64,000 nucleotides of DNA from Dokdonella fugitiva. GTDB lineage: Bacteria; Pseudomonadota; Gammaproteobacteria; Xanthomonadales; Rhodanobacteraceae. The notes under the pieces were generated by a model. The model searched no databases. It saw only the letters and a list, made by a program, of their open reading frames with translations, and was not told the DNA's origin. A program made the translations under genes and the position numbers. The stretch is taken from positions 62,001 through 126,000 of the forward strand of contig NZ_JACGXL010000004.1 in the NCBI RefSeq assembly GCF_014138265.1, written 5' to 3'. Shown piece by piece: positions 10,483 through 26,706 of this stretch (positions are counted from its first letter, which is position 1; the number at the start of each line of letters is the position of its first letter).

Positions 10483-11904
10483 ATGAGCAAGCACTACGCA
10501 CTGGTCATCGACGACGAACGCGACATCCGCGAGCTGCTGACGCTCACCCTCGGCCGCATGGATCTCATCGTGGAAACCGCGGCGACCGTCGCCGAGGCGA
10601 GGCAGCGGCTGACCGAGCGCCGCTACGCGCTGTGCTTCACCGACATGCGCCTGCCGGACGGCTCGGGCCAGGAGATCATCGCGCTCGTCGCCGCTCAGTA
10701 CCCCGAGACGCCGATCGCGATGATCACCGCGTACGGCAACGTCGACGCGGCCGTCGACGCGCTCAAGGCCGGGGCATTCGACTTCGTCTCCAAGCCGGTC
10801 GACATCAGCGTGCTGCGCCGCCTCGTGCAGACGGCACTCAAGCTGTCCGAGGAAAAGCGCGCCGAGCAGTCGAACAGCGGCAGCAAGCTGATCGGCGACT
10901 CCGCGCCGATGAACGAACTGCGCGCGACGATCGCCAAGGTCGCGCGCAGCCAGGCCCCTGTCTACATCGCCGGCGAGTCGGGCACCGGCAAGGAACTCGT
11001 CGCGCGGCTCATCCACGAACTCGGCCCGCGCTCGACCGCGCCATTCGTGCCGGTCAACTGCGGCGCGATCCCGTCGGAACTCATGGAGAGCGAATTCTTC
11101 GGCCACAAGCGCGGCAGCTTCACCGGCGCGCAGACCGACAAGGACGGCCTGTTCCACGCGGCGCAGGGCGGCACTCTGTTCCTCGACGAGGTCGCCGAGC
11201 TGCCGATGCACATGCAGGTGAAACTGCTGCGCGTGATCCAGGAGAAGGCCGTGCGCCCGATCGGCGCGCGCGCCGAGGTCGGCGTCGACGTGCGCATCCT
11301 CTCGGCCACGCACAAGAACCTCGCGCGCCTGGTCGAACTCGGCTCGTTCCGCCAGGACCTGTTCTACCGCATCAACGTGATCGAACTGAAGGTGCCGCCG
11401 CTGCGCGACCGGCGCGAGGACATTCCCAAGCTCGCCGGTCGCGTGCTCGAACGCCTCGGCAAGGACAACGGCACCGCGCCCGCGCGGCTCGAACCCGAGG
11501 CCCTCAAGGCGCTGCTCTCGTACGACTTCCCGGGCAACGTGCGCGAACTCGAGAACGTGCTCGAACGCGCGGTCGCGCTGTGCGAGAACAACAGCATCGG
11601 CATCGGCGACCTGCGCCTCGCCGCCGGTGAACGCGCGGCCAGCGTCGCCGCCGAAGCGTGGGCGAACACGCCGACACCGACCGCGGGCGCGTACGCCGAG
11701 CCGCGGCCGCCCGCGTACGCGGCCGAACCGCCCGAGGACGAAGGCTTCCCGAGCGACCTCGCCGCCGCCGTCGCCGAGACCGAGCGCGCGGCGATCATGA
11801 AGGCGCTCGAAGCGACGCGCTGGAACCGCACCGCCGCGGCCAAGCAGCTCGGCCTCACCCTGCGCCAGTTGCGCTACCGGCTGGAAAAGCTTGGCATCGA
11901 GTAG
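10483..11904 (+). CDS. pilR: Sigma-54-dependent response regulator PilR
   Basis: NtrC-class activator of pilA transcription, 473 residues. The receiver domain (1-120) has the phospho-acceptor Asp54 in CFTDMRLPDG. The AAA+ domain has Walker A GESGTGKE (164-171), the sigma-54 contact loop GSFTGA (211-216, the Ser variant usual in PilR rather than GAFTGA) and Walker B LFLDE (232-236). A Pro/Ala-rich linker of about 50 residues, richer than usual, leads to a Fis-type HTH at the C-terminus (WNRTAAAKQLGLTLRQLRYRL, trimmed). The likely target is the sigma-54 promoter of pilA in this window. The gene converges on the next minus-strand gene with only 14 bases between stops. Confidence 0.94.
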   Translation: MSKHYALVIDDERDIRELLTLTLGRMDLIVETAATVAEARQRLTERRYALCFTDMRLPDGSGQEIIALVAAQYPETPIAMITAYGNVDAAVDALKAGAFDFVSKPVDISVLRRLVQTALKLSEEKRAEQSNSGSKLIGDSAPMNELRATIAKVARSQAPVYIAGESGTGKELVARLIHELGPRSTAPFVPVNCGAIPSELMESEFFGHKRGSFTGAQTDKDGLFHAAQGGTLFLDEVAELPMHMQVKLLRVIQEKAVRPIGARAEVGVDVRILSATHKNLARLVELGSFRQDLFYRINVIELKVPPLRDRREDIPKLAGRVLERLGKDNGTAPARLEPEALKALLSYDFPGNVRELENVLERAVALCENNSIGIGDLRLAAGERAASVAAEAWANTPTPTAGAYAEPRPPAYAAEPPEDEGFPSDLAAAVAETERAAIMKALEATRWNRTAAAKQLGLTLRQLRYRLEKLGIE

Positions 11905-11918
11905 CTGTCCCGGCCCGA

Positions 11919-14909
11919 TCAAGGCACGCGCGCGCGCGCGTTCGAGACGAACGACAGCGCCGCCAGCCAGCGTCGCTCGAACGCGTATTGCTTCACGTCC
12001 CCGCCATGGGCGCGCTCCAGGTCGGCCATCGCCCCGTAGCGACCCAGAGCGAAGTTGGCGAGATCGGTCGCTCCGAGTGCGAAGGCCTTGAACGACGGAA
12101 CCGTGTCCAGCCCACCATCGAACAATTCGCTGCCGATTCGCGCGGTTTCGGGCCAGTCCCTCGCGCTCAATGCCGCGTAGTACGCAAGGACGCGAGCGAC
12201 ACGCGGATCCTTGGAGGGGCAGCTCGCGAGCCATGCCGGTTGGATCCAGACGCCTTTCAGTTCTTCGGCGTCGAGATGGGAAATCGTCGCACCCGCGACG
12301 GCGGCGCTCGCTTCGATCCAGACGTCCGCCGCGAGATCCGTCGCGCAGCCCCTCGCCAGCGAACGCATCGTCACGACCTGCCGCATCATGTCCGGGTCGG
12401 CCGATCCGACCGGCTGCCCCGACAGCAGCGTCGCCTTGATGTCCAGCGCCTGCTGGCGCCCGATGTCCCCGGCGAGCAATCCGGCATTGGCACTCGCGTT
12501 TCCACTCGGCTGCGGCAACGCCATCGCGACCTCCGCGAGCGGCCAGACGCCTCCCTGCAGCCCGATGATGTCGCTCGCCGTGGTGTGCGTGAAGCGCGCC
12601 TTGGGCGCGTGCAGCTGTACGTAGGGAAACATGTCCGAGTTGGTCGGGGTCGGCGCCATTCGCGCCAGAGCCTCGAGACCTCGCCGGTCGAGCAGAGCGA
12701 ACCGCCTCCAGTCGTCGGGGCCATGCACCGACATGCGCTGCAGTTCGGAACGCAGCTGCGCCGAAGCACCGCCGATGTCGCTCAACCCGGGGAGATCGCC
12801 GTCCGCGCTGGCGACGAGCAGCATGTCGGACGAGTTGGTGGTGTAGGCCTTAACGTCGTGGAAGTGCGGGAGCATCGCCTTCAATATCGAAGCGACCAGC
12901 TCCGGCGTGATCTCGTACAGCTGCACCCACTGCACGAAGATGCCGTCACGGTTGAGATGGCGCGGCACGAACGCGTAGAACTCGTCCGAAAAGAGCGTCG
13001 CGACGCCGTTCACCCAAGGATTGGAGGGCTCCGACACGATGACGTCATAGCGCTTCGACGAACCTGCCATGTAAGCCTTCGCGTCGTCGTACGCGACGCG
13101 CACGCGCGGATCCGCGAATGCACGTCCGACCCGCGGACCGAAGCCGCGTGCGGCCGCCACCATCTCGGGCTCGATCTCGACGACATCGACGCTGCGCAAC
13201 GTGTCGCTGCCGAGCAGGGTGTGCACGGTCATGCCGGAACCGAATCCGATGACCGCCGCATCCTCGATTTGCGGCCGGTAGGCCAGCGGGAGTGCGGCAA
13301 GGAACGCCATCGTGTACTCGTCCAGCGCGGGCCGTGCAGCCGGGTCGGTTGCGATGGAGGCATCCGGCTTGCCGTTCGTCGCGATCGAACGGATCTTGCT
13401 CGGCCCTGGATACTGGAAGAGCGCCACCGTGGCGGTCTTGCCGTCCGCGTAGTACAGCATGTCGGTGCCGTCCGGCAGGCGCGGCCGACCGCTACGGTAC
13501 ACCGACGAAGCGAGCGTCAGCGGATCCACGCGTGTCCACGCGACGGCGGCGACCGCCAGTGCGGCCGAGACCACGCCGCCGACGACGAGCGCGCGCGCGC
13601 GCACTCGCATCGCGGCACCCCCGCTCCGTGCGATCAGGTACAGGCCGAGTGCGAGATCGACGAGCGCCGCGAGCCAGAGCGCGAGACGCACGCCGAGCGA
13701 AGGCATCAGCACGTGAAGGGTCAGCAGCACGCCGACGATCGCACCCAACGTGTTGGCCGCGTAGGCACGGCCGATCGCGCGTTCGCCCGATCCGCGACGA
13801 AGCAACGCGAGCGTCAGCAACGGCAACGTCATGCCGGCGAAGAAGGCGGCGGGAAACATCACCGCGAGGGAGATCGCGCCGGAGGCGACGTTGAAGAACG
13901 CGTAGCCTTCGTCGTTGCGTGCGAGACCGTTCACGAGGGCCGCGATCCAGTCGAACGAGCGCGCATAGACGAACAGCGAGCCGAGCGCGGCAAGGCCCAT
14001 GAGCACCTGGGCCCATCCGGCGGCGAGCAACGCATCCGGCAGACGATCGGCGCGTCGACGCAACCAGAGGCCACCGAACGCGATACCGCTGATGAATGCC
14101 GCGAGCATGAGCTCGAACGCATGCAGCGTACTGCCGAGCGCCTGGGCGAGCATGCGCACCCACGTGAGTTCGTACACGAAGGACGTCGCACCGGTGATCG
14201 CGGCGGCCAACAGGATGAACCCTGGCAGGAGGCCGCCTGCGGCTTCGTTTCGCGCCGAAGCCACGGCAGCGGTCGGCTGCTTCGCCAGCGGCCACACGAG
14301 GACGGCGACGACGATGCTCAGCATGCCGCCGGTCATGACGGTGCCGGGCAATCCGACGGCCGGAAGCAAGGCGAACGTCGCCGCCAATGCACCGATCGCT
14401 GCACCGAAGCTGTTGGAGAAGTAGAGTCCGGCCAGCACTTGGCCGCCCTCGACAGGTGTGCGCCGCAGGTAACCGGCGCTCATCAACGGGAAGGTCGTGC
14501 CGAGCAGGACGCACTGCGGCCCGATCAGCGCCGCGCAAATCGCGTAGCGACTCGCGTCGAGCAGGTATCCGGATCCGACGAGCGGGAAAACACGGGAATA
14601 CGCGAACCCGGTGACGCCGTGGTAGATCGGGTCGAACGCGATGCCGAGCACGCCGACGATCAGTTCCGCGGCAGCGTAGGCGACCAGGGGCCGGGCCAGC
14701 AGCTCGCTGCGCCGACTCACCAGCCAGGCTCCCAGCGCCATCCCGCCCATGAAGAGAATGAGGACGAACGATTGCGCGTAGGCGGCGTGGCCGAGGAACA
14801 GGCCCAGGTACTGGGCCCAGATGGTTTCGTACAGCAATCCCGCGAACCCGGAGACCGCAAAGAGACCGAGCAGCGCGATATTCGCCGCACGCGAACTGGA
14901 TGAGTGCAT
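11919..14909 (-). CDS. Membrane-anchored spermidine/spermine synthase-like protein
   Basis: 996 residues. The N-terminal ~450 residues carry many hydrophobic segments in an MFS-like arrangement (starts LGLFAVSGFAGLLYETIWAQ). Residues about 480-720 form a spermidine-synthase-like Rossmann domain: YYADGKTATVALFQ, the nucleotide-binding VIGFGSGMTVHTLL, the acidic VDVVEIEPEMV, and SEPSNPWVNGVATLFSDEFY. A roughly 270-residue helical tail follows. Such fused proteins are common and mostly uncharacterised; a real aminopropyltransferase activity is not established. A strong site (GAGGAGGGG) precedes ATG 14909. The gene sits between pilR and the pilin accessory gene and is transcribed the opposite way, so a link to pili is only positional. 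Confidence 0.8.
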   Translation of the reverse strand: MHSSSSRAANIALLGLFAVSGFAGLLYETIWAQYLGLFLGHAAYAQSFVLILFMGGMALGAWLVSRRSELLARPLVAYAAAELIVGVLGIAFDPIYHGVTGFAYSRVFPLVGSGYLLDASRYAICAALIGPQCVLLGTTFPLMSAGYLRRTPVEGGQVLAGLYFSNSFGAAIGALAATFALLPAVGLPGTVMTGGMLSIVVAVLVWPLAKQPTAAVASARNEAAGGLLPGFILLAAAITGATSFVYELTWVRMLAQALGSTLHAFELMLAAFISGIAFGGLWLRRRADRLPDALLAAGWAQVLMGLAALGSLFVYARSFDWIAALVNGLARNDEGYAFFNVASGAISLAVMFPAAFFAGMTLPLLTLALLRRGSGERAIGRAYAANTLGAIVGVLLTLHVLMPSLGVRLALWLAALVDLALGLYLIARSGGAAMRVRARALVVGGVVSAALAVAAVAWTRVDPLTLASSVYRSGRPRLPDGTDMLYYADGKTATVALFQYPGPSKIRSIATNGKPDASIATDPAARPALDEYTMAFLAALPLAYRPQIEDAAVIGFGSGMTVHTLLGSDTLRSVDVVEIEPEMVAAARGFGPRVGRAFADPRVRVAYDDAKAYMAGSSKRYDVIVSEPSNPWVNGVATLFSDEFYAFVPRHLNRDGIFVQWVQLYEITPELVASILKAMLPHFHDVKAYTTNSSDMLLVASADGDLPGLSDIGGASAQLRSELQRMSVHGPDDWRRFALLDRRGLEALARMAPTPTNSDMFPYVQLHAPKARFTHTTASDIIGLQGGVWPLAEVAMALPQPSGNASANAGLLAGDIGRQQALDIKATLLSGQPVGSADPDMMRQVVTMRSLARGCATDLAADVWIEASAAVAGATISHLDAEELKGVWIQPAWLASCPSKDPRVARVLAYYAALSARDWPETARIGSELFDGGLDTVPSFKAFALGATDLANFALGRYGAMADLERAHGGDVKQYAFERRWLAALSFVSNARARVP

Positions 14910-14981: not shown

Positions 14982-14987
14982 TATATT
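14982..14987 (+). promoter_or_regulatory. Candidate -10 element for pilin accessory gene
   Basis: TATATT lies 27 bases before the ATG at 15014 in the 104-base divergent gap. No clear -35 element is visible. AAAGGTG at 15003-15009 is the ribosome site for the downstream gene. Confidence 0.25.
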
Positions 14988-15013
14988 TCTTGCTCCGCTC
15001 GCAAAGGTGCCGC

Positions 15014-15757
15014 ATGACCCGCTTCAAGGCTGCGACGATCCACCTTTCAATCAGTGCACTCCTCGGCCTCATTGCAGCGGCCGTGATATTCGGCGTCTGG
15101 TACCCGCGCCCGTACAGCCATGCAGCCGGTGCCGATCGGCTCGTGCTGTTGCTGCTCGGCGTCGACGTGGTGCTCGGCCCACTGCTGACGCTCATCGTGT
15201 TCCGTTCCGGCAAGCCGGGCATGCGCTTCGACCTCGTCGTGATCGCGCTCGCGCAGGCCTGTGCGTTCCTCTACGGCACGTCGGTGGTCGTGCGCGCTCG
15301 CCCAGCCTTCGTCGTCGGCAATGTCGACCGCTTCTCGCTCGTCGCCGCAAACGACATCGACGGCGACGCGTACGCGAAGGCCACGAACGCGGAGTTCCGC
15401 TCGGCGCCCTGGACCGGCCCGCGCATCGTCGGCGCGCTGCCGCCCACGGACGCGCAGGAACGGAATCGACTCATGCTGCGAGGACCTGGCGGACCGGACA
15501 TCGACGTGCTGCCGCAGTACTACGTCGACTACGCGCAGGTCGTCGCGGCGTTGCTGCAGAAGGCGAAGCCACTCGCGGAATTGACGCGTCGACATCCGGA
15601 AGCGGCCTCCGTCGTGACGTCGTGGCTCGCTGCGCGGCAACGCGAGGAAACGGACGTGGTCTGGCTGCCGCTCGAGGCCCGGCGCGCGAGCCTCACGATG
15701 CTGCTCGATCGCCGAAGCGGCGCGCCGCTCGATGCACTGCCCGTGGATCCATGGTGA
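15014..15757 (+). CDS. TfpX/TfpZ-type type IV pilin accessory protein
   Basis: 247 residues, inner membrane. Three or four hydrophobic segments occupy residues 7-100 (IHLSISALLGLIAAAVIFGVWYP; LVLLLLGVDVVLGPLLTLIVF; FDLVVIALAQACAFLYG). The soluble periplasmic part ends with YYVDYAQVVAALLQKAKPLAEL. The pattern VxxDxxxGPLxTxxVF, then Lys-Pro-Gly and an RPAF block, is what I know of the TfpX/TfpZ family, which lies beside pilA in Stenotrophomonas, Acinetobacter and Moraxella and helps assembly of specific pilin alleles. It stands 295 bases upstream of pilA in the same direction. ATG 15014 is chosen because it has AAAGGTG at good spacing; the upstream part of the frame is not protein-like. Confidence 0.8.
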   Translation: MTRFKAATIHLSISALLGLIAAAVIFGVWYPRPYSHAAGADRLVLLLLGVDVVLGPLLTLIVFRSGKPGMRFDLVVIALAQACAFLYGTSVVVRARPAFVVGNVDRFSLVAANDIDGDAYAKATNAEFRSAPWTGPRIVGALPPTDAQERNRLMLRGPGGPDIDVLPQYYVDYAQVVAALLQKAKPLAELTRRHPEAASVVTSWLAARQREETDVVWLPLEARRASLTMLLDRRSGAPLDALPVDPW

Positions 15758-15919: not shown

Positions 15920-15935
15920 TGGCACGGAAGCTGCT
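15920..15935 (+). promoter_or_regulatory. Sigma-54 promoter of pilA
   Basis: TGGCACGGAAGCTGCT fits the -24/-12 consensus TGGCACG-N4-TTGCW with one mismatch, and GG and GC have the exact 10-base separation. Transcription would start near 15946, giving a leader of about 107 bases. This agrees with PilS/PilR being encoded nearby. Confidence 0.82.
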
Positions 15936-16052: not shown

Positions 16053-16496
16053 ATGAACAAGATCCAGAAGGGCTTCACCCTGATCGAATTGATGATCGTC
16101 GTCGCGATCATCGCGATCCTGGCCGCGATCGCGCTGCCGGCTTACCAGGACTACATGGTCCGCGCCAAGCTCAGCGAAGTGTTCGTCGCCGGCGACGCGT
16201 GCAAGAACTCGGTCGTCGAGTTCTACGAGGGTCAGGGCCACCTGCCGCCGAACATCTCGAGCGCGGGCTGCAACAACAACACGACCAAGTACATCGCTTC
16301 GACGACGATGCCGAACCCGGGCGACATCTGGGTGACGACGCAGGGTGGTGCAGCCGATCTGTACGGCGCGGCGGGCGCGGTCTATGCGCTGCATCCGGCG
16401 CCGGCCGCGGGCAACACCGACGTGCTCGAGTGGACCTGCAACAAGGCCGCCGGTACGACGATCCCGGTCAAGTACGTGCCGTCGCTCTGCCGTTAA
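16053..16496 (+). CDS. pilA: Type IV major pilin
   Basis: Structural subunit of the type IV pilus, 147 residues. The short leader MNKIQKG precedes the prepilin cleavage site [25 protein letters not shown], with the essential Glu5 of the mature chain. PilD (encoded in this window) would cleave and N-methylate it. The C-terminal region has Cys in WTCNKA and the final SLCR, which likely form the D-region disulfide; two further Cys lie at about residues 50 and 71. A sigma-54 promoter precedes the gene and a strong terminator follows, so pilA is probably a single-gene unit made at high level. The ribosome site AGAGGA lies just before the ATG. Confidence 0.97.
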
Positions 16497-16518
16497 TCGG
16501 TACTGCAAGACGTGTATG

Positions 16519-16549
16519 GACGCCGCCTTCGGGCGGCGTCTTTTTTTTT
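16519..16549 (+). terminator. Intrinsic terminator of pilA
   Basis: Nine-base perfect stem GACGCCGCC / GGCGGCGTC around a TTCG tetraloop, followed by nine T residues. It lies about 22 bases after the pilA stop. Confidence 0.95.
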
Positions 16550-16589: not shown

Positions 16590-18494
16590 ATGAGCACCAT
16601 CGGATCTCGCCATCTAGGCATCGGCGCGGCCCTCGCCGCGCTCGGCATCGCCTGCGTGCTCGCGTACGCGCGCGGACTCGGCGGCGACTTCCTGTTCGAC
16701 GACTTCCCGAACATCGTCGCGAACCCGGCCCTCCAGGCCGTCAAGGACGGCAGGCCGGACTGGTTCGCCGTCGCCTTCCTCACCGGCTCGGGGCAACTGC
16801 GCCGGCCGATCAGCATGCTTTCGTTCGGCGCCAACGTGTACTGGTTCGGCATGAGCCCGTTCGCGTTCAAGCTCGTGAACGTCGTCATCCACCTCTTCAA
16901 TGGCTTGCTGCTGTACGGATTGTTCCGTCGCATCGCGCCGCGCCTGCTGCCCGCGGGACGTGCGGTCGATCCGCGCACCGTCGCCCTCGTGGCCGCCGGA
17001 ATCTGGCTGCTGCACCCGCTCCACGTGAGCAGCGTGCTCTACGTCGTGCAGCGCATGAACCTCCTGGCGACGTTGTTCGTCCTGCTCGGGCTGTACAGCT
17101 ACGCGGAAGGGCGAACGCGCATGCTGCGCGGCGAGCGCGGCTTGCTGGTGGCGCTGTCGGGGCTGTGCGTCTTCGGCTTGCTTGCCGTGTTCTGCAAGGA
17201 GAACGGCGCGCTCGTCGCGATGTACGCCCTGGCGGTCGAGTGGTCGTGCTTCCGCTTCGAAACCCCGGGCGGCGGAGGCCGGCGCCTGCGCGCCTTCTTC
17301 TGGCTCAGCGTCGCGCTGCCGCTCGTCGCCTACGCAGGATACCTGGTGCTGCATCCGGAGTCGCTCGCCTACGCGCGCAACGGATTCACGCTGTACACGC
17401 GCCTGCTCTCGGAGGCGCGCGTCTTGTGCGAGTACCTGTCGTGGATCTTCGTGCCGCTGCCGTCGTTCATGGGCATGTACCACGACGACATCGCCGTGTC
17501 GGCCGGCCTTTTCGCCCCCGTCACCACCGCGATCGCGATCGCCTTCCTCGTCGCGCTCGCCGCCGCCGCATGGCGCTGGCGGCGCAGCGTACCCGCGCTC
17601 GCGTTGGGCGTGGCCTGGTTCCTCGTCGGCCATTCGCTCGAGTCGACGATCTTCCCTCTCGAACTCGTGTTCGAACACCGCAACTACCTGCCGATGGCAG
17701 GCCCGCTGCTGGCCGCGACCTGCCTGTTGGCGCCGATGCTCGCGATGCGCCCGACCACCGCGCGCGCGGCGGCGTTCGGCGTGCTCGCCCTGCTCGGCAT
17801 TGCGACGACGGCGAGAGCCTACGACTGGCGCAGCGCACTGACGCTCGCGCTCGCCGACGTCGCGCATCATCCGGCGTCCTCGCGCTCGCAGTACGAAGCC
17901 GGTCGCGCCGTGGCCGCCGACGGCGCCCGCCGCGGTGCATTCGATGCGGTCGTGCCCCAGGCCATGGAATTCATGCGCAGGGCTGCGGACCTCGATCCGC
18001 GCCAGGTGTTCCCCCGCGTGTCGCAGATCCTGCTGCGCGGCAAGAGCACGCCAACCCCGCCCGAGGAGATCGGCGACCTCGCCGAACGCCTGCGCCGCGC
18101 TGAATCGAACGAGCAAGCCAATCCGTTCCTCGACATGCTGGTCACCGCTTCCGAAGGTACGCTCGCGCTCTCACCGGCCGACGTGGCGAAGCTGTTCGAA
18201 GCGGCCCTCGCGAATCCGCGCTGGCGCCCGCAGGTCCGCGCGATGATGTACAACGACTACGGCGCCTATCGATTCAACGTCGAAGGCGACCATGCGGAAG
18301 GCATCCGGCTCACCGAGCTGGCGGCGACGACCGATCCGCGCAACGCCTATTTCGAGCTGAACCTCGCCAAGATCGCAATCGCCGTCGGCGACATGCACCT
18401 GGCGGCGGAGCACCTTGCGAAGGCGCGCGACATCGACCGGCTCGACAGCCATCGCGAGGAAATCGATGCCCTGCAGAAGCAGATCCATGATTGA
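16590..18494 (+). CDS. TMTC-like GT-C membrane glycosyltransferase with TPR-like tail
   Basis: 634 residues. The first ~420 contain about 10-12 hydrophobic segments. An acidic first loop has [13 protein letters not shown], and later come [31 protein letters not shown] and [13 protein letters not shown]. These blocks resemble the TMTC/O-mannosyltransferase group of GT-C enzymes (DD motif and the HPIHTEAV-like block) that use lipid-linked sugars on the outer face of the membrane. Residues about 430-634 are helical, soluble and TPR-like, ending with [21 protein letters not shown]. It starts 41 bases after the pilA terminator in the same direction; GGAG precedes the ATG. I infer a protein O-glycosyltransferase, possibly for pilin. 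It is not recognisably TfpO/PilO or TfpW; an O-antigen ligase or polymerase role is the main alternative. Confidence 0.65.
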
Positions 18495-18542: not shown

Positions 18543-19661
18543 GTGAACGAATCACCCTTGCGCGTGCTGATGGTCAGCACGTCCTACCCGGCCGACCTCG
18601 GCGACTGGCGCGGACTGTTCATCCGCCACGTCGCCGATGCGCTCGCACGTCGCCGGGATATCCGACTGCGCCTGTGGTCCCCACCGGGCGAGATGCCCGC
18701 CGACGCGACTTACGCGGCGACGCCCGACGAACGCCGCTGGCTCGCCCAGCTGATGCAAGCGGGTGGGATCGCTCACCTGATGAGGATGCGTGGCGCGCGC
18801 GGCCTCGGCACGCCACTGCAGCTGCTGCGGATGCTGCGTTCTCTGTACCAGAGAGAGCGCGACATTGACGTCCTGCACGTCAACTGGCTGCAGAATGCGC
18901 TCGTGCTGCCCTGCAATGCGACCCCGCTGCTGGTCACGGTGCTCGGCACGGACCTCGCCCTGCTGCGCCTGCCCGGCATGGAGGCGCTGCTTCGTCGCGT
19001 GTTTCGCGGGCGGCGCGTCTTCATCTGCCCGAACGCGGCCTGGATGGTGCCGCGACTGGAGCGCCTGTTCGGTGATCTTGCACGCGTGCGCCATGTCCCG
19101 TTCGGAATCGATCCTCGCTGGTACGAGGTCGAGCGTGCTCCGGTGACGCCGTCCCGATGGCTGTGCGTCTCCCGGCTCACCGCCGGCAAGATCGGCAACC
19201 TCTTCTCGTGGGGCGAAGCCGCCTTCGCCGGGGCGAATCGCGAACTGCATCTGTTCGGCCCCATGCAACAGTCGATGGTGGTTCCCGACTGGGTGCATTA
19301 CCACGGCGCGGCGAGCCCCGATGTGCTGTGCAACGACTGGTTCCCGACCGCGCGGGGACTGGTCACGCTCAGCGTGCACGCGGAGGGCCTGCCGCAGGTC
19401 ATGCTCGAAGCCATGGCGGCGACGCTGCCGATCGTCGCGTCGCGCATCCCGGCGCACGAGGACCTGATTCGTCACGGCTCGACCGGCTGGTTGTGCGGCG
19501 GCACCGACGACTTCGCCGCGGCGCTCGACGCGCTCGAGGACGACACGCGCGGCCGCGAGATCGGCGAGCGTGCGCGCGAGTTCGTCAGGGCCGGGGTTGG
19601 CACGTGGGACGATTGCGCGGCACGCTATGCGGACATCCACCGGGAGCTCGTCGCCTCGTGA
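18543..19661 (+). CDS. Glycosyltransferase family 4
   Basis: 372 residues, cytosolic GT-B fold. The N-terminal half opens with RVLMVSTSYPADLGDWRGLFIRHVADAL, the usual GT4 opening. The C-terminal half has WLCVSRLTAGKIGN, the conserved Glu region SVHAEGLPQVMLEAMAATLPIVAS (E-x7-E type) and a tail GSTGWLCGG. Known relatives add a sugar from a nucleotide donor to a lipid-linked or oligosaccharide acceptor. The start is GTG (GTG AAC GAA); there is no better ATG. It overlaps the next gene by 4 bases (GTGA), so the run 18543-21522 is translationally coupled. Confidence 0.88.
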   Translation: MNESPLRVLMVSTSYPADLGDWRGLFIRHVADALARRRDIRLRLWSPPGEMPADATYAATPDERRWLAQLMQAGGIAHLMRMRGARGLGTPLQLLRMLRSLYQRERDIDVLHVNWLQNALVLPCNATPLLVTVLGTDLALLRLPGMEALLRRVFRGRRVFICPNAAWMVPRLERLFGDLARVRHVPFGIDPRWYEVERAPVTPSRWLCVSRLTAGKIGNLFSWGEAAFAGANRELHLFGPMQQSMVVPDWVHYHGAASPDVLCNDWFPTARGLVTLSVHAEGLPQVMLEAMAATLPIVASRIPAHEDLIRHGSTGWLCGGTDDFAAALDALEDDTRGREIGERAREFVRAGVGTWDDCAARYADIHRELVAS

Positions 19662-20584
19662 CTGACACCACCGCCAGGAGCGTCCTGTTGCTCGGGGGCG
19701 CCGGCTTCATGGGCCGCGCTCTCTGTGCGCGACTGGGAGCACGCGGCTACGACGTCCATGTGCTCACACGGGGTACGGCGCTGGAGATCGCCGAGGGCTG
19801 CACCGTCCACGGCGGCGGAATCGAAAATACCGAGCTGCTGAGGCGATTGCTGCCGCGCATGGGGACGGTCGTCCATCTCGCTTCGGCGACGACGCCCGGC
19901 TTGTCCGCCGCCACGCCTTCGCTCGAAGCCGACCTCAACATCGCGCCGACGCTCGGCCTGCTCGGCGAACTGATCGCCCATCCACGCGTTCGCCTCGTCT
20001 ACGTTTCTTCCGGCGGAACGGTATACGGCGATCCCGGCGGCGGCTCGGCGGACGAATCGTCGGAGCTCAAGCCACTGTCGTTCTACGGCGCGGGCAAGGT
20101 GGCCGCCGAAACCTTCCTGCGCTGCTTCCAGCAACGACACGGCAATCCGCTCGTGATCCTTCGTCCGTCGAACGTCTATGGTCCCGGACAGCCGCGCTAT
20201 CAGGGGTTCGGCGTCATCCGCACGATGCTGCAGCACGCGCTCGACGGCACGACGATGGGCATCTGGGGGGACGGATCCATCGTGCGTGATTTCGTCTACA
20301 TCGACGACGTCGTTTCGGCGATGGAGTGCTTCGTCGCGGACGACGCGCTGGTCGGCACGTTCAACGTCGGCGCCGGCGTCGGCCACAGCCTCAACGACCT
20401 CGTGGCGATCATCGAACGCGTCAGCGGCCGGCCGCTGTCCGTCCGCCACGAAGCCGCACGCGGCATCGACGTACAGCGTATCGTGCTCGACACGCGAGCG
20501 ATCCGGCAACGCTGCGGCTGGACGTCCACGACGTCGCTGGAAGCCGGCGTGGCCACCACCTGGCAATGGTTGCGGGCACAATGA
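19658..20584 (+). CDS. NAD-dependent nucleotide-sugar epimerase/dehydratase
   Basis: 308 residues, extended SDR fold. It shows the NAD-binding GGAGFMG at about residues 13-19, SSGGTVYG, the catalytic pair Tyr-x3-Lys in SFYGAGKVAAE, and RPSNVYGPGQ. It likely interconverts or dehydrates a UDP- or GDP-sugar that supplies the neighbouring glycosyltransferases; the exact sugar cannot be told. It starts with GTG inside the stop of the GT4 gene (GTGA) and its own TGA overlaps the ATG of the next gene (ATGA). Confidence 0.86.
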   Translation: MTDTTARSVLLLGGAGFMGRALCARLGARGYDVHVLTRGTALEIAEGCTVHGGGIENTELLRRLLPRMGTVVHLASATTPGLSAATPSLEADLNIAPTLGLLGELIAHPRVRLVYVSSGGTVYGDPGGGSADESSELKPLSFYGAGKVAAETFLRCFQQRHGNPLVILRPSNVYGPGQPRYQGFGVIRTMLQHALDGTTMGIWGDGSIVRDFVYIDDVVSAMECFVADDALVGTFNVGAGVGHSLNDLVAIIERVSGRPLSVRHEAARGIDVQRIVLDTRAIRQRCGWTSTTSLEAGVATTWQWLRAQ

Positions 20585-21522
20585 GTCAGATTCCAGACAG
20601 CGACGCCACCGAGACTATCTGCGCGGGATGCGCAGCGAAGGCTCGCGCGCAGGTTCCCGCGCATGTTCATCGCGCGGGGCACAACCAGCGCACCTACACG
20701 TTGCAGCAATGCCCCGACTGCGACCTGCAGTTCTGGTGGCCGTTGCAGGCCGATCCGACCGTGTACGAGGGCGAGGGCTTCGAGGCCTACGTCGACTACC
20801 ATTCCGGCAAGCGGCCGTTCCCGCGCTGGGCCGAGCCACTGTTCGCGGCGTTGCCGCCGGGACGCGGCCGCGCGCTCGACATCGGCTGCGGCGACGGCGC
20901 CGTGCTGCACCGGCTCTCGCAGGTCGGCTACGAACCCCATGGCATCGACCTGGACGAGAAGAGCGTCGCCGTCGCGCGGGACAAGTTCCGGCTCTCGAAC
21001 GTGGCGGTGTCGACGCTCGATGCCTACGAGGACGCGCGCCGGGTCGACGGCGAACGATTCGACCTGGTGACGTTCTTCGAGGTGCTCGAGCACCAGGACG
21101 CGCCGCTCGAGTTCCTCGCGCAGGTACGGCGCCTATGCCGGCCCGGTGGCGTCGTCGCAGGCAGCGTGCCCAATCGCGACCGGTTCCTCGCGCGGTTCGA
21201 CCGCAGGCTCGGCGACGGCGACCTGCCTCCGCACCACTTCTTGTGGTTCTCGCGCGTGTCACTGATTCGCCTGCTCGAGCGCGCCGGCTTCATCGACGTC
21301 GAGGTCCGCCTGACCGGAGCCCTTCCCTACGCACAGATCGTCGCCAAGCTCGGCGCACTCGTCGGGCGCAGACTGCGCAAGGCGCCCGCGGGGTTGCGCT
21401 GGCTCGAGTGGCCGATCAAGGCATTCGTCCCGGCGCTCGCGGTCGTCCCCTGGATCGGCATGCGGCTTGCGCCGTCGCACCTGTTCTTCCGCTGCACGGT
21501 CCCCACCGTGGGCGCGTCATGA
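20581..21522 (+). CDS. Class I SAM-dependent methyltransferase with N-terminal Cys-rich motif
   Basis: 313 residues. The N-terminus has two CxxC pairs (CAGCAAKA and CPDCDLQF), like the zinc-ribbon head seen on methyltransferases of polysaccharide clusters. The Methyltransf_11/23 core has motif I LDIGCGDGAV, the acidic IDLDE and the post-motif FDLVTFFEVLEH. The C-terminal ~60 residues are hydrophobic and may sit at the membrane (FVPALAVVPWIGMRLAPSHLFF). It probably methylates a sugar or lipid-linked intermediate. It ends the plus-strand glycan operon and overlaps the 3' end of the opposing gene by 6 bases. Confidence 0.84.
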   Translation: MSQIPDSDATETICAGCAAKARAQVPAHVHRAGHNQRTYTLQQCPDCDLQFWWPLQADPTVYEGEGFEAYVDYHSGKRPFPRWAEPLFAALPPGRGRALDIGCGDGAVLHRLSQVGYEPHGIDLDEKSVAVARDKFRLSNVAVSTLDAYEDARRVDGERFDLVTFFEVLEHQDAPLEFLAQVRRLCRPGGVVAGSVPNRDRFLARFDRRLGDGDLPPHHFLWFSRVSLIRLLERAGFIDVEVRLTGALPYAQIVAKLGALVGRRLRKAPAGLRWLEWPIKAFVPALAVVPWIGMRLAPSHLFFRCTVPTVGAS

Positions 21523-22491
21523 ACCTGCGCGTTTGCGAGGTGCGAAGGGGGCGAACAGCAAGCCGAGCACCAGATCGACGAACAGCAGGCTGACGCGACC
21601 AACTACCGCCATCAACACGATAGCGTCGTTCGGAAAATCCTGCGCGAGCCAGGCGAACACGAGTTCGCGCACGCCCAGCCCGGACGGCGTCAGCAGCGAG
21701 ACGTAGCCGACGAACCAGGCCACCATGTAGTAGGCACACATGCGCACGCCGCCTGCGCCACCGAGCGGCGCGTACGCCATTCCGTTGACGTACCAGCTCG
21801 CATAGCAGGCGAGCCAGCTCACGGCGAACAGCAGCAGGATGTGCAGCTTGTCCTCCGGCGGCAGGATGGCCGAAACAGGTAGCGAATCGTCACCGAAACG
21901 ACGCCTCGCTCGCGGGCCGATCCACGGCAACGCCATGAGCAGCCGCGGAGCACTCCACAGCAGGGCGCAGCCAAGCGCGCCGACGAGGAAGGCGGCGCCG
22001 CCGGCGAGCGGACGGATGAAGGAGGCGATCGCGATCGTCGAACTCCACAACGCGAAATAGGTCGCGAGCAAGGTGTGCAGCACGTTCGCCTGGACCCAGC
22101 TGCCGAGCGACGCCGTTCTTCCGCCCGCCATCCATTGGTAGCCGATCCCCCAGATCCGCCCCGGAAGATGCTTGAACAGCTGCGCGGTGAAATACAGGTG
22201 CGCGAGTTCGCGCAGGCGGTATCCCTCGACGCGGAGCGCCGGCAGCAGCCTCGCGAAAGCAAGGAACGTGAACCAGGAAGCGACGACCGCGAGCAGCAGG
22301 GCGAAGAGCAGGCGGAGAGGATCGATTTGGTCGTAGTGCGCGGCGATGTCGGGCAGCGCCTGCGCGACCAGGCGCGCGGCCCAGGCGATCGCCAGCAAGG
22401 TGAGGATCGCCGCGACGACGCGCCACGTGCGCGAACGGGCTGGCGCCGGGGGTTCGCCGCCCGGCGCGCCGCGGCTCAGGTCTCTTTCCAC
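21517..22491 (-). CDS. UPF0104 / lysylphosphatidylglycerol synthase TM-like membrane protein (module 1)
   Basis: 324 residues with about eight hydrophobic segments. It matches the flippase-like UPF0104 group: AQLFKHLPGRIWGIGYQ, and the signature LLTPSGLGVRELVFAWL followed by VGRVSLLFVDLVLG near the C-terminus. Members are often next to polyprenyl-phosphate glycosyltransferases and are thought to act in lipid-linked sugar handling or transport; activity is unproven. The start is GTG 22491, overlapping the stop of the upstream methyltransferase by 16 bases; the longer upstream open frame is antisense-like low-complexity Arg-rich sequence. It converges on the plus-strand methyltransferase. Confidence 0.78.
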   Translation of the reverse strand: MERDLSRGAPGGEPPAPARSRTWRVVAAILTLLAIAWAARLVAQALPDIAAHYDQIDPLRLLFALLLAVVASWFTFLAFARLLPALRVEGYRLRELAHLYFTAQLFKHLPGRIWGIGYQWMAGGRTASLGSWVQANVLHTLLATYFALWSSTIAIASFIRPLAGGAAFLVGALGCALLWSAPRLLMALPWIGPRARRRFGDDSLPVSAILPPEDKLHILLLFAVSWLACYASWYVNGMAYAPLGGAGGVRMCAYYMVAWFVGYVSLLTPSGLGVRELVFAWLAQDFPNDAIVLMAVVGRVSLLFVDLVLGLLFAPFAPRKRAGS

Positions 22492-23234
22492 AACAGCCAG
22501 ATGTATCCGGGGAACATCCTGCGCAGGAGGCCGTACATGGACCGGGCGGCGAAGTGCGCGAACCGCGTAGGGAACAGGTAGCCGGCCCCGTAACGCTCGG
22601 GATTGGACAACACCTTGCCTGTGTAGTCCTCCCTGCGGAACGCGGAAACGAGGTCGAGCAGCGGCCCATACCCGAGGTGGCGCTCGTAGTAGGCGTCGCC
22701 CTTGCGTGCCCACCGGATGTAACGGTCCGCCGCACGCGCGGGCAGCCAGGAAAGAAACGGCAGCCGATGGTGCTTCTCGATGATCGCCCAGCGATTCGTC
22801 GCCGCGAAATAACACACCCCGCCCGGTCGGAGTACGCGCCGGATCTCCGCCATCATGCGCCGTGCATCAGGCACGTGTTCGTAGACCTGAGAGCAGATGA
22901 CGACGTCGAATGTCTCGTCGGCGGACGCAAGGTCCATCGCGTCGCCGAGCTGGAATCGCAGGTTGGGAGCGGCCACGCGCGACGTCGCCAGCGCGATCGC
23001 CGGCTCGTCGATGTCGACACCCGTCATCGTGCGAACGTGCGGAGCGATGTACTCGTCGATGATCCCCGTCGAGCAACCGAGGTTGAGCGCGTCCGCGCGG
23101 GCGAGGCGGGGACCGAGCGCCTCGCCGAGTATCGCGACCATGGTCGACGCCTTGCGGCGGCGCTCGTCGAGCGAGTGCATCGACTCGTACATCGTCGAGA
23201 AATCGGGTTGGTATCCGCGATTCATGGCTTCCAT
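22476..23234 (-). CDS. Class I SAM-dependent methyltransferase (module 1, a)
   Basis: 252 residues, Methyltransf_11 type. SAM motif I is ALNLGCSTGIIDEYI, the acidic ribose contact is GVDIDEPAI, and the core ends with FDVVICSQVYEHVPDARRMM and LRPGGVCYFAATNRW. The C-terminal part has amphipathic stretches (MFPGYIWLLWKET) that may touch the membrane. The substrate is unknown; its place between a GT2 enzyme and a UPF0104 protein suggests a lipid-linked sugar. It lies 19 bases after the next methyltransferase gene upstream. Confidence 0.83.
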   Translation of the reverse strand: MEAMNRGYQPDFSTMYESMHSLDERRRKASTMVAILGEALGPRLARADALNLGCSTGIIDEYIAPHVRTMTGVDIDEPAIALATSRVAAPNLRFQLGDAMDLASADETFDVVICSQVYEHVPDARRMMAEIRRVLRPGGVCYFAATNRWAIIEKHHRLPFLSWLPARAADRYIRWARKGDAYYERHLGYGPLLDLVSAFRREDYTGKVLSNPERYGAGYLFPTRFAHFAARSMYGLLRRMFPGYIWLLWKET

Positions 23235-24000: not shown

Positions 24001-24855
24001 CTAGCCACGATCGTCGCGCCGGTAGGTCAGCGCGGTGATCTGTTCCGAAATCAGCCCGATGAGGAACACGATGACCGACGCGCTGAACAGGAGCACGCTC
24101 ATGTTCGTGAGCCGGTGCGCCGTCGCGAACGTGTACGCGTAGTGGCCAAGGCCGAGCAGGAAGAACAGCGCGCTCGCGGGCGCGAACAACTTCAGCGGCG
24201 AGTACAGCGTCGCGATCTTGAAGATGATCAGCAGGAATCGCACGCCGTCGCGCAACGGTCGGATGTGGCTCCTGCCGATGCGCTGTGCCACCGGCACCGG
24301 CTCGTAGGCGACGGCATAGGCGCTGCGGAAGAACGCCATCGTGCAGGTCGTGGGGTAAGAAAATCCGTTCGGCAGCAGGTGCAGGAACTCGCGGAACTTG
24401 TCCGCGCGCACGGCGCGGAACCCCGAGGTGAGATCCCTCACGGCGAATCCGGTCATGCGCGTGGCGAGCCAGTTGTAGAACGTGTTGGCGACGCCGCGGC
24501 CGACGCCGGCCTGGCCCGACCAGTCACGCGCTCCGACGACCATGTCGAACCCTTCGTCGAAGCGGTCGAGCAGGCGCCCGATGAGCGCCGGGTCGTGCTG
24601 GCCGTCCGCATCCATGAAGACGAGGACATCGCCGCGCGCCTCGCGCGCACCGCGCTTGATCGCCGCGCCATTCCCCATCGAATACGCCTGGCGGACCGTG
24701 CGCACGCCGGCATCGCCGCAGATCCGCGCCGTGTCGTCCGTGGATCCGTCGTCGACGACGATGATCTCGGCGTCCGGCCAGGTGGAGCGCAGGCGCGGAA
24801 GAAGGTCGGCCAGGGCCGCCGCCTCGTTCTTCGCCGGCAGGATGATGCTGAGCAT
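24001..24855 (-). CDS. GT2 glycosyltransferase, polyprenyl-phosphate sugar synthase type (module 1)
   Basis: 284 residues. The GT-A domain has the family opening MLSIILPAKNEAAAL, nucleotide site VVDDGSTDDTA, metal-binding DADGQHDP and the DLTSGFRAVRAD loop. Two C-terminal hydrophobic segments (APASALFFLLGLGHYAYTFA and VLLFSASVIVFLIGLIS) anchor it. This layout is that of dolichol-phosphate-mannose-synthase/GtrB-like enzymes, which transfer a sugar from a nucleotide to undecaprenyl phosphate. Such a product would be a donor for the GT-C protein encoded nearby. First gene of the minus-strand module, diverging from pilB with 126 bases between starts. Confidence 0.87.
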   Translation of the reverse strand: MLSIILPAKNEAAALADLLPRLRSTWPDAEIIVVDDGSTDDTARICGDAGVRTVRQAYSMGNGAAIKRGAREARGDVLVFMDADGQHDPALIGRLLDRFDEGFDMVVGARDWSGQAGVGRGVANTFYNWLATRMTGFAVRDLTSGFRAVRADKFREFLHLLPNGFSYPTTCTMAFFRSAYAVAYEPVPVAQRIGRSHIRPLRDGVRFLLIIFKIATLYSPLKLFAPASALFFLLGLGHYAYTFATAHRLTNMSVLLFSASVIVFLIGLISEQITALTYRRDDRG

Positions 24856-24894
24856 GGCCTCCCCGGCCTAAAGGCATGATTTTATGTGAGCTGC

Positions 24895-24917
24895 CTCCCT
24901 ATACTGCCGGCAGGGAG
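24895..24917. promoter_or_regulatory. Inverted repeat in the pilB / GT2 divergent gap
   Basis: CTCCCT at 24895-24900 pairs with AGGGAG at 24912-24917, and inside it CTGCCGGCAG (24904-24913) is a perfect palindrome. It could be an operator for either divergent gene. I found no sigma-54 match (GG-N10-GC) and no clean -35/-10 pair here. Confidence 0.35.
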
Positions 24918-24981
24918 TTCTTTCGGCAATGCATTTGGGGTAGATTCAGCTTTAGATAACGGGGACTTGCACGGCATTTCT

Positions 24982-26706
24982 ATGGCGACCCAGATGAATA
25001 CGCCACCGTTGGCGGGCCTCTCCGGCATCGCAAGGCGGCTGGTTTCCGAGGGTGCCCTTGCCGAGAACGATGCGCGCAAGGCGGTCGAGGACGCCGCGAA
25101 GGCGAAGATTCCGATCGGCGCGTGGCTCGTCGAGAACGGCCTCGCGCAAGGCCGGCAGGTTGCGATGGCGGCCTCGGCCGAGTTCGGCATGCCGCTGCTC
25201 GACATCACCTCGCTCGACCTCGGCCAGCTTCCGCTGAACATCGTCAAGGAAGAACTCATCACGAAGCACAAGGCGTTGCCGCTGTTCAAGCGCGGCAATC
25301 GCCTGTTCGTCGGCGTCGCGGATCCGACCAACCTGCGCGCGCTCGACGAGATCAAGTTCCAGTCGAACCACCTGATCGAACCGATCCTCGTCGAGGACGG
25401 CGTGCTCGAGCGCGCGATCGAGCAGGCGCAGACGAACGCCAACCAGAACATCACCGACATCGGTGATGCGGAAGGACTCGAGAACCTCGAGCTCGGCGCG
25501 GTCGACGACGACGAACAGACCGGTGTCGACGCGACCGGCGGCGACGATGCGCCGGTCGTCAAGTTCGTCAACAAGGTGCTCGTCGACGCGATCAAGCGCG
25601 GCGCCTCGGACATCCATTTCGAGCCGTACGAAACCGCCTACCGCGTGCGTTACCGCATGGACGGCATGCTGCGCGCGGTGGCGTCGCCGCCGCCAAAGCT
25701 GAGCCCGCGAATCTCCTCGCGCCTCAAGGTCATGAGCGGCCTGGACATCGCGGAAAAGCGCGTACCGCAGGACGGCCGCATCAAGCTCAACCTGTCCAAG
25801 ACCAAGGCGGTCGACTTCCGCGTCAGCACCTGCCCGACGTTGTTCGGCGAGAAGATCGTGCTGCGTATCCTCGATGCTTCCGCCGCGAAGATGGGCATCG
25901 AGAAGCTAGGCTACGAAGAAGACCAGCAGAAGCTGTTCCTCGACGCGATCGACAAGCCGTACGGCATGGTGCTCGTGACCGGCCCGACCGGTTCCGGCAA
26001 GACGGTTTCGCTCTACACCGCGCTGAACATCCTCAACACCGAAGGACGCAACATCTCGACGGTCGAGGATCCGGTGGAAATCCGCCTTCCGGGCGTGAAC
26101 CAGGTGCAGCAGAACACCAAGCGCGGCATGACGTTCGCCGCCGCGCTGCGCTCGTTCCTGCGCCAAGACCCGGACGTGATCATGGTCGGCGAAATCCGCG
26201 ACCTCGAAACCGCGGAGATCGCGATCAAGGCCGCCCAGACCGGTCACATGGTGCTGTCGACGCTGCACACCAACGATGCGGCGCAGACGATCTCGCGCCT
26301 CATGAACATGGGCATCGCCCCGTACAACATCACTTCGTCCGTGTCACTCGTGATCGCACAGCGTCTCGCACGCCGGCTGCACGACTGCAAGAAGCCGCTG
26401 GTGCTGCCACCCGCCGCCTTGCTCGCGGAAGGCTTCACCCAGGCCGACATCGACTCCGGCATGCAGTTGTTCGATGCCGGCGGCTGTTCGGGCTGCAATG
26501 ACGGCTACAAGGGCCGCACCGGCATCTATCAGGTGATGCCGATGTCCGAGGCGATCCAGAAGATCATCCTCGCCGGCGGCAGCGCACTGCAGATCGCCGA
26601 GGAAGCGCGTCGCGTCGGCATTCGCGACCTGCGCCAATCGGCATTGCTCAAGGCCAAGCAGGGCCTCGTCAGCCTCGCCGAAATCAACCGCGTCACCAAG
26701 GATTAA
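24982..26706 (+). CDS. pilB: Type IV pilus extension ATPase
   Basis: Hexameric cytosolic motor that drives pilus assembly, 574 residues. The N-terminal MshEN/GSPII_E domain spans about 20-160 (GIARRLVSEGALAEND). The ATPase core has Walker A GPTGSGKTVSLY, the Asp box STVEDPVEIRLPGVNQVQ, Walker B DPDVIMVGEIRDLETAEIA and the His box GHMVLSTLHTNDA. Of the usual tetracysteine zinc site only three Cys are visible (one in RRLHDCKKP and CSGC). The start is taken at ATG 24982 (MATQMNTPP); ATG 24994 is possible, and no strong ribosome site marks either. pilC follows 2 bases after the stop. Confidence 0.96.
   Translation: MATQMNTPPLAGLSGIARRLVSEGALAENDARKAVEDAAKAKIPIGAWLVENGLAQGRQVAMAASAEFGMPLLDITSLDLGQLPLNIVKEELITKHKALPLFKRGNRLFVGVADPTNLRALDEIKFQSNHLIEPILVEDGVLERAIEQAQTNANQNITDIGDAEGLENLELGAVDDDEQTGVDATGGDDAPVVKFVNKVLVDAIKRGASDIHFEPYETAYRVRYRMDGMLRAVASPPPKLSPRISSRLKVMSGLDIAEKRVPQDGRIKLNLSKTKAVDFRVSTCPTLFGEKIVLRILDASAAKMGIEKLGYEEDQQKLFLDAIDKPYGMVLVTGPTGSGKTVSLYTALNILNTEGRNISTVEDPVEIRLPGVNQVQQNTKRGMTFAAALRSFLRQDPDVIMVGEIRDLETAEIAIKAAQTGHMVLSTLHTNDAAQTISRLMNMGIAPYNITSSVSLVIAQRLARRLHDCKKPLVLPPAALLAEGFTQADIDSGMQLFDAGGCSGCNDGYKGRTGIYQVMPMSEAIQKIILAGGSALQIAEEARRVGIRDLRQSALLKAKQGLVSLAEINRVTKD

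Follow-up and report, generated by a model that had tools for sequence, protein, structure and literature searches.

Pilin O-glycosyltransferases known so far include TfpO/PilO and PglL, which are of the O-antigen ligase type. The cyanobacterial Ogt belongs to another enzyme class than GT-C: it is soluble and of the O-GlcNAc-transferase type. The Ogt gene adjoins pilA and affects pilin glycosylation (PMC12288463). TfpW, the arabinosyltransferase of Pseudomonas group IV pilins, is a GT-C enzyme encoded in a pilA accessory cassette; it modifies the adjacent pilin, and its donor is D-arabinofuranose (passages of PMC11841053 and PMC12369383). Gtr-type periplasmic glycosylation is a three-component system of a lipid-phosphate sugar synthase, a flippase and a GT-C enzyme, with O-polysaccharide as acceptor (PMC11127046). 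In eukaryotes, the O-mannosyltransferases TMTC1-4 combine a GT-C half with a TPR tail. The motifs listed for the human enzymes are DD, SHKSYRP, RxD, KE, DW and ERxxY (PMC7801869).

The window, a stretch of 64,000 nucleotides of Dokdonella fugitiva DNA, holds a pilA locus between pilR and pilB (Table 1). Directly 3' of pilA and its terminator lies a gene for a 634-residue GT-C/TPR protein. An earlier note, a model's reading of the letters of this DNA, had placed it there, and its coordinates, strand and the two quoted motifs of 11 and 18 residues are exact. The GT4, epimerase and methyltransferase genes follow in the same direction, also as described in that note, and then come opposite-strand genes ending in a GT2, just before pilB. 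This GT2 is the nearest to the GT-C gene and groups with dolichol and undecaprenyl-phosphate sugar synthases. The TfpX/TfpZ gene and the pilR-pilB setting of the locus had been overlooked. The locus combines a presumed assembly helper, TfpX/TfpZ, and a presumed glycosyltransferase. A looser form of the sigma-54-type site was found within 300 nt upstream of 40 out of 118 homologous pilin genes, compared with 2 out of 118 random stretches. Between pilR and the TfpX/TfpZ gene, a long fused MFS/spermidine-synthase-like protein is encoded at 11919-14909 (-); it is near pilA also in four other loci (L033, L044, L088, L113). The GT-C/TPR protein is probably a GT-C glycosyltransferase that faces the periplasm and is dedicated to the adjacent type IV pilin. 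This reading builds on the genomic linkage, a conserved site at the predicted periplasmic face and the predicted fold.

Table 1. Features of the pilA locus and of the GT-C/TPR protein, with positions in the window.
Feature	Position	Strand	Evidence
pilR	10483-11904		named from sequence
TfpX/TfpZ family pilin accessory protein, 5' of pilA	14984-15757	+	NF041437, 260.6 bits (cut-off 200)
Sigma-54-type -24/-12 site, 5' of pilA	15920-15935	+	
pilA, type IV major pilin, C-terminal Cys pair, presumed acceptor	16053-16496	+	PF00114, PF07963
Terminator between pilA and GT-C gene, presumed attenuator	16518-16549	+	strong, 10-bp stem at 16518-16541, then T run
Candidate pilin glycosyltransferase, TMTC-like GT-C membrane protein with C-terminal TPR tail, 634 aa	16590-18494	+	ORF translation, alignments, AF2, Foldseek
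GT-C membrane half, residues 1-413, 11 TM helices, N-in topology (inferred)	16590-17828	+	AF2 helices, loop charge tally, fold matches
D37-D38, loop EL1, candidate catalytic acids	16698-16703	+	130/131, other row a gap; invariant in set A2
Q154-R155, loop EL2	17049-17054	+	130/131, other row a gap
K203-E204, loop EL3	17196-17201	+	E to A in 28/131, mostly first tandem copies
D299, loop EL4	17484-17486	+	129/131
EHRNY motif, residues 362-366, loop EL5	17673-17687	+	131-row alignment
Helical/TPR-like tail, residues 414-634, predicted periplasmic	17829-18491	+	matched by consensus TPR proteins in sequence and fold
GT4 glycosyltransferase, variable accessory gene	18543-19661	+	PF13692, PF00534
NAD-dependent sugar epimerase/dehydratase, variable accessory gene	19664-20584	+	PF01370, 149.6 bits
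Class I methyltransferase, variable accessory gene	20584-21522	+	PF13489
GT2, polyprenyl-phosphate sugar synthase type (DPMS/ArnC/GtrB-like), presumed donor synthase	24001-24855	-	
pilB	24886-26706		named from sequence

Homologues of the GT-C/TPR protein are encoded in 166 of 198 Rhodanobacteraceae genomes. A survey of pilA adjacency, proposed in the earlier note, revealed pilA beside the GT-C gene in more than 90% of eligible loci, within the family and beyond it. Eighty family loci were read, and 69 were eligible with at least 2 kb of upstream sequence. In 65 of these, pilA directly precedes the GT-C gene on the same strand; in one more (L112), it was recognised by motif. Named loci with enough upstream sequence gave the same arrangement in 58 of 63 cases. 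No recognisable pilin gene directly adjoins the GT-C gene in three loci of the family and five of the named ones. The adjacency is not due to chance, since it recurs in all 26 genera (26/26) of the family in which the homologue is present. Across the phylum, 36 of the 397 genomes sampled had a match to the protein at 1e-10. Plasmid and phage records gave no match to it, so there is no sign of mobile carriage. A contiguous cassette of pilA, one or two GT-C genes and GT2 is present in Nitrosomonadales, Dechloromonas, Halieaceae and several gammaproteobacterial MAGs (MAG names are as recorded and may be wrong), in both gamma- and betaproteobacteria.

The synthase of the DPM/ArnC/GtrB type for lipid-phosphate sugars is a recurrent partner: a GT2 is nearby in 21/21 family loci with at least 9.5 kb of downstream sequence or pilB in view. 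Tandem GT-C copies occur at 58 of the 80 family loci. Their number tracks that of the pilins, with 70 loci having two of each, 23 having one of each and the mixed classes having 22 and 12 (odds ratio 6.1, Fisher p 2e-5, calculated over two collections that count some loci twice and ignoring relatedness). No acceptor serine or threonine is convincingly conserved in the neighbouring pilins.

Alternatively, a GT-C enzyme could lie beside pilA for shared regulation and have other acceptors: several proteins of the periplasm or surface, minor pilins or a surface polysaccharide. Genes of the O-antigen-ligase type and the GtrA type elsewhere in the genome are in line with this, as is the modification of O-polysaccharide by Gtr-type GT-C enzymes (PMC11127046). 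The explanation is nevertheless unlikely: in many genera and two proteobacterial classes, it is the pilin gene itself that the GT-C gene is linked to, the order pilA-GT-C is kept while the remaining neighbours change, and the copy number follows that of the pilins. The adjacent pilin is the most likely acceptor because of this link to pilA itself, the copy numbers and a terminator typical of pilin-accessory cassettes, in which it is a common feature after the pilin gene (passages of PMC11841053).

Residue conservation was scored in an alignment of the window protein with 130 homologues (131 sequences). D37, D38, R72, Q154, R155, K203, R271, Y282, R364 and Y366 are present in all rows but one, which has a gap; D299, E358, E362, H363 and N365 are conserved in at least 93% of the sequences. 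According to the AlphaFold2 helices and an N-in topology, of 25 polar positions that are highly conserved in the membrane half, 17 are periplasmic, seven lie in helices and one is cytoplasmic. The aspartate pair provides conserved acidic residues in the first extracytoplasmic loop, a feature of the GT-C superfamily. Conservation of acidic residues across homologues had been set beforehand as a test, and D37-D38 and the GT-C-like site were kept over sets of 82 to 131 homologues. In the third loop, the change of KE to KA at position 204 characterises a subgroup of first tandem copies (L075, L089, L061 and others), perhaps with an altered donor or activity.

The order of these residues parallels that of TMTC1-4 by eye: DD in EL1, R in EL2, KE in EL3, D in EL4 and E..Y in EL5 (PMC7801869). 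The same visual comparison finds counterparts of the human DD, RP, R, KE, D and E..Y but not of the exact SHKSY or the tryptophan. The fifth loop has EHRNY in the window protein and ERxxY in TMTC1-4. The likeness claimed in the earlier note does not extend to the Pfam family: PF08409 (TMTC_DUF1736) had no match in the own genome at E 0.01 or in 32 members at 0.1. The protein is named TMTC-like and not TMTC because this profile finds nothing in the genome. It further differs from TMTC1-4 in being bacterial and pilin-linked.

A non-enzymatic, TfpY-like helper of pilus assembly, with the GT-C half as scaffold and the TPR tail as pilin chaperone, is improbable. TfpX/Y/Z raise assembly without pilin modification (passages of PMC11841053), protein binding is common for TPR tails, and the E204A subgroup exists. 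However, acidic, basic and aromatic residues of the site are near invariant in the 131 sequences, the GT2 partner recurs, and the locus in the window already has a helper in TfpZ.

A dedicated pilin glycosyltransferase is in agreement with the predicted structure. The AlphaFold2 model of the full-length protein, built from 82 aligned sequences (pLDDT 94.3, pTM 0.93), shows a TPR tail behind a multi-pass membrane half, as expected from the earlier note. The tail matches consensus TPR proteins in sequence and Foldseek searches. Since TPR proteins swamped the Foldseek search with the whole model, residues 1-440 were refolded and searched alone (pLDDT 94.1, pTM of the models 0.93-0.94). The best 11 PDB folds were exclusively GT-C: PimE, yeast and human STT3, archaeal AglB, bacterial ArnT and PglB, with Foldseek probabilities of 0.99-1.00, E-values of 0.002-0.08 and TM scores of 0.35-0.49. 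Membership of the membrane half in the GT-C fold class is well supported by these model comparisons; the nearest subfamily is not. The assignment stops at the class because all best folds are GT-C but E-values are modest and TM scores do not exceed 0.49. The topology of 11 transmembrane helices with a cytoplasmic N-terminus is predicted from model helices and loop charges. Searches with Pfam and NCBIfam models left the membrane half of the window protein unassigned, those of 32 relatives gave only scattered weak single hits in these collections (one to WsfD, E 4.5e-4), and a membrane-half profile reached no GT-C protein, or anything else, among PDB sequences. A viral fold search had no match at E 0.001, and its best results were mostly TPR proteins.

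An O-antigen ligase or Wzy-type polymerase is extremely improbable and was rejected as an identity: known pilin transferases with the role proposed here, TfpO/PilO and PglL, are of that class, and Wzy_C was hit below threshold in one distant relative (E 0.04), but neither the window protein nor 32 members matched a Wzy_C or PglL Pfam profile, and no ligase or polymerase was among the best PDB folds of the membrane half, which bears out the dissimilarity to TfpO/PilO seen in the earlier note.

For a glycosyltransferase dedicated to the pilin, we infer the following path. In the cytoplasm, the GT2 would load a sugar onto undecaprenyl phosphate, as expected for its family, and a putative flippase would turn the lipid-sugar over. 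By analogy, K203 and residues of loop 5 may bind the lipid phosphate and aspartates and glutamates of the GT-C half a metal. D37 and D38 would activate a serine or threonine hydroxyl of the membrane-embedded pilin before assembly, with the periplasmic TPR tail possibly docking the pilin head. The variable accessory genes (GT4, epimerase and methyltransferase) may serve to lengthen or diversify the glycan. A lipid-linked sugar from nearby GT2 enzymes had been suggested before. The recurrence of the GT2 agrees with this, and its type, a polyprenyl-phosphate sugar synthase, points to a lipid-monophosphate sugar as donor rather than to a long lipid-linked glycan. The pairing of such a synthase with a GT-C enzyme is shared with the Gtr-type systems, which include a flippase (PMC11127046), whereas no dedicated flippase was identified in the minimal pilA-GT-C-GT2 cassette. 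In the window, 21517-22815 (-) encodes a multi-pass membrane protein that looks flippase-like by eye and has no Pfam match at E 0.01; it could be the missing lipid-sugar flippase.

The enzyme had been proposed as a new kind of pilin O-glycosyltransferase. The architecture and the family appear to be new, but the use of a GT-C fold is not: pilin glycosyltransferases of GT-C type (TfpW, in passages of PMC11841053 and PMC12369383) are already known besides those of the ligase type (TfpO, PglL). Like TfpW, the window protein is a GT-C enzyme inside a pilA cassette. It differs by its DPM/GtrB-type GT2 partner, where TfpW uses D-arabinofuranose, and by its TPR tail, which those passages do not mention for TfpW (a comparison by description). 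A GT-C half joined to a predicted-periplasmic TPR tail, with a DPM/GtrB-type partner and present almost throughout one family, appears to be undescribed in the open-access literature searched. That search found no description of a TPR/GT-C gene adjoining pilA, and the main text of a Xylella pilus survey mentions neither glycosylation nor TPR. We lean towards a wider reading, held less firmly than that for the single enzyme: TMTC-like GT-C/TPR proteins would make up a large family without a name and, together with a polyprenyl-phosphate sugar synthase, a cassette dedicated to pilin glycosylation. This cassette would be carried nearly throughout one bacterial family, extend across gamma- and betaproteobacteria, pair tandem enzymes with tandem pilins and represent a bacterial counterpart of animal TMTC O-glycosylation.

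If so, a further architecture would stand besides TfpO/PglL and TfpW, and a gene present in many species without a Pfam or NCBIfam name would be explained. The family would provide a bacterial model for TMTC enzymes, whose own transferase activity was not yet demonstrated at the time of PMC7801869, and a new transferase for glycoengineering. It would also bear on the evasion of pilus-specific phages, to which the glycosylating TfpO and TfpW contribute (passages of PMC11841053).

Distant TMTC-like homologues served as a control. Within the 11-19.5 kb read around 11 of them (10 loci and L236), no pilin motif was found; the pilin linkage is therefore a trait of the GT-C/TPR clade and not of all TMTC-like proteins. 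In a quick tree that includes long branches, a branch with 99% SH-aLRT separates 12 outgroup homologues from the rest, and the pilA-linked long-branch row L248 loosely joins their side. L236 (8797-10323) is a second, distant TMTC-like gene of the window's own genome, on contig 2 and with no pilin nearby. About 7 kb from the TMTC-like relative L238 (7567-9360) are genes for pseudopilins of the general-secretion type and pilB/pilC-like genes, which may reflect a comparable association with a secretion pseudopilus.
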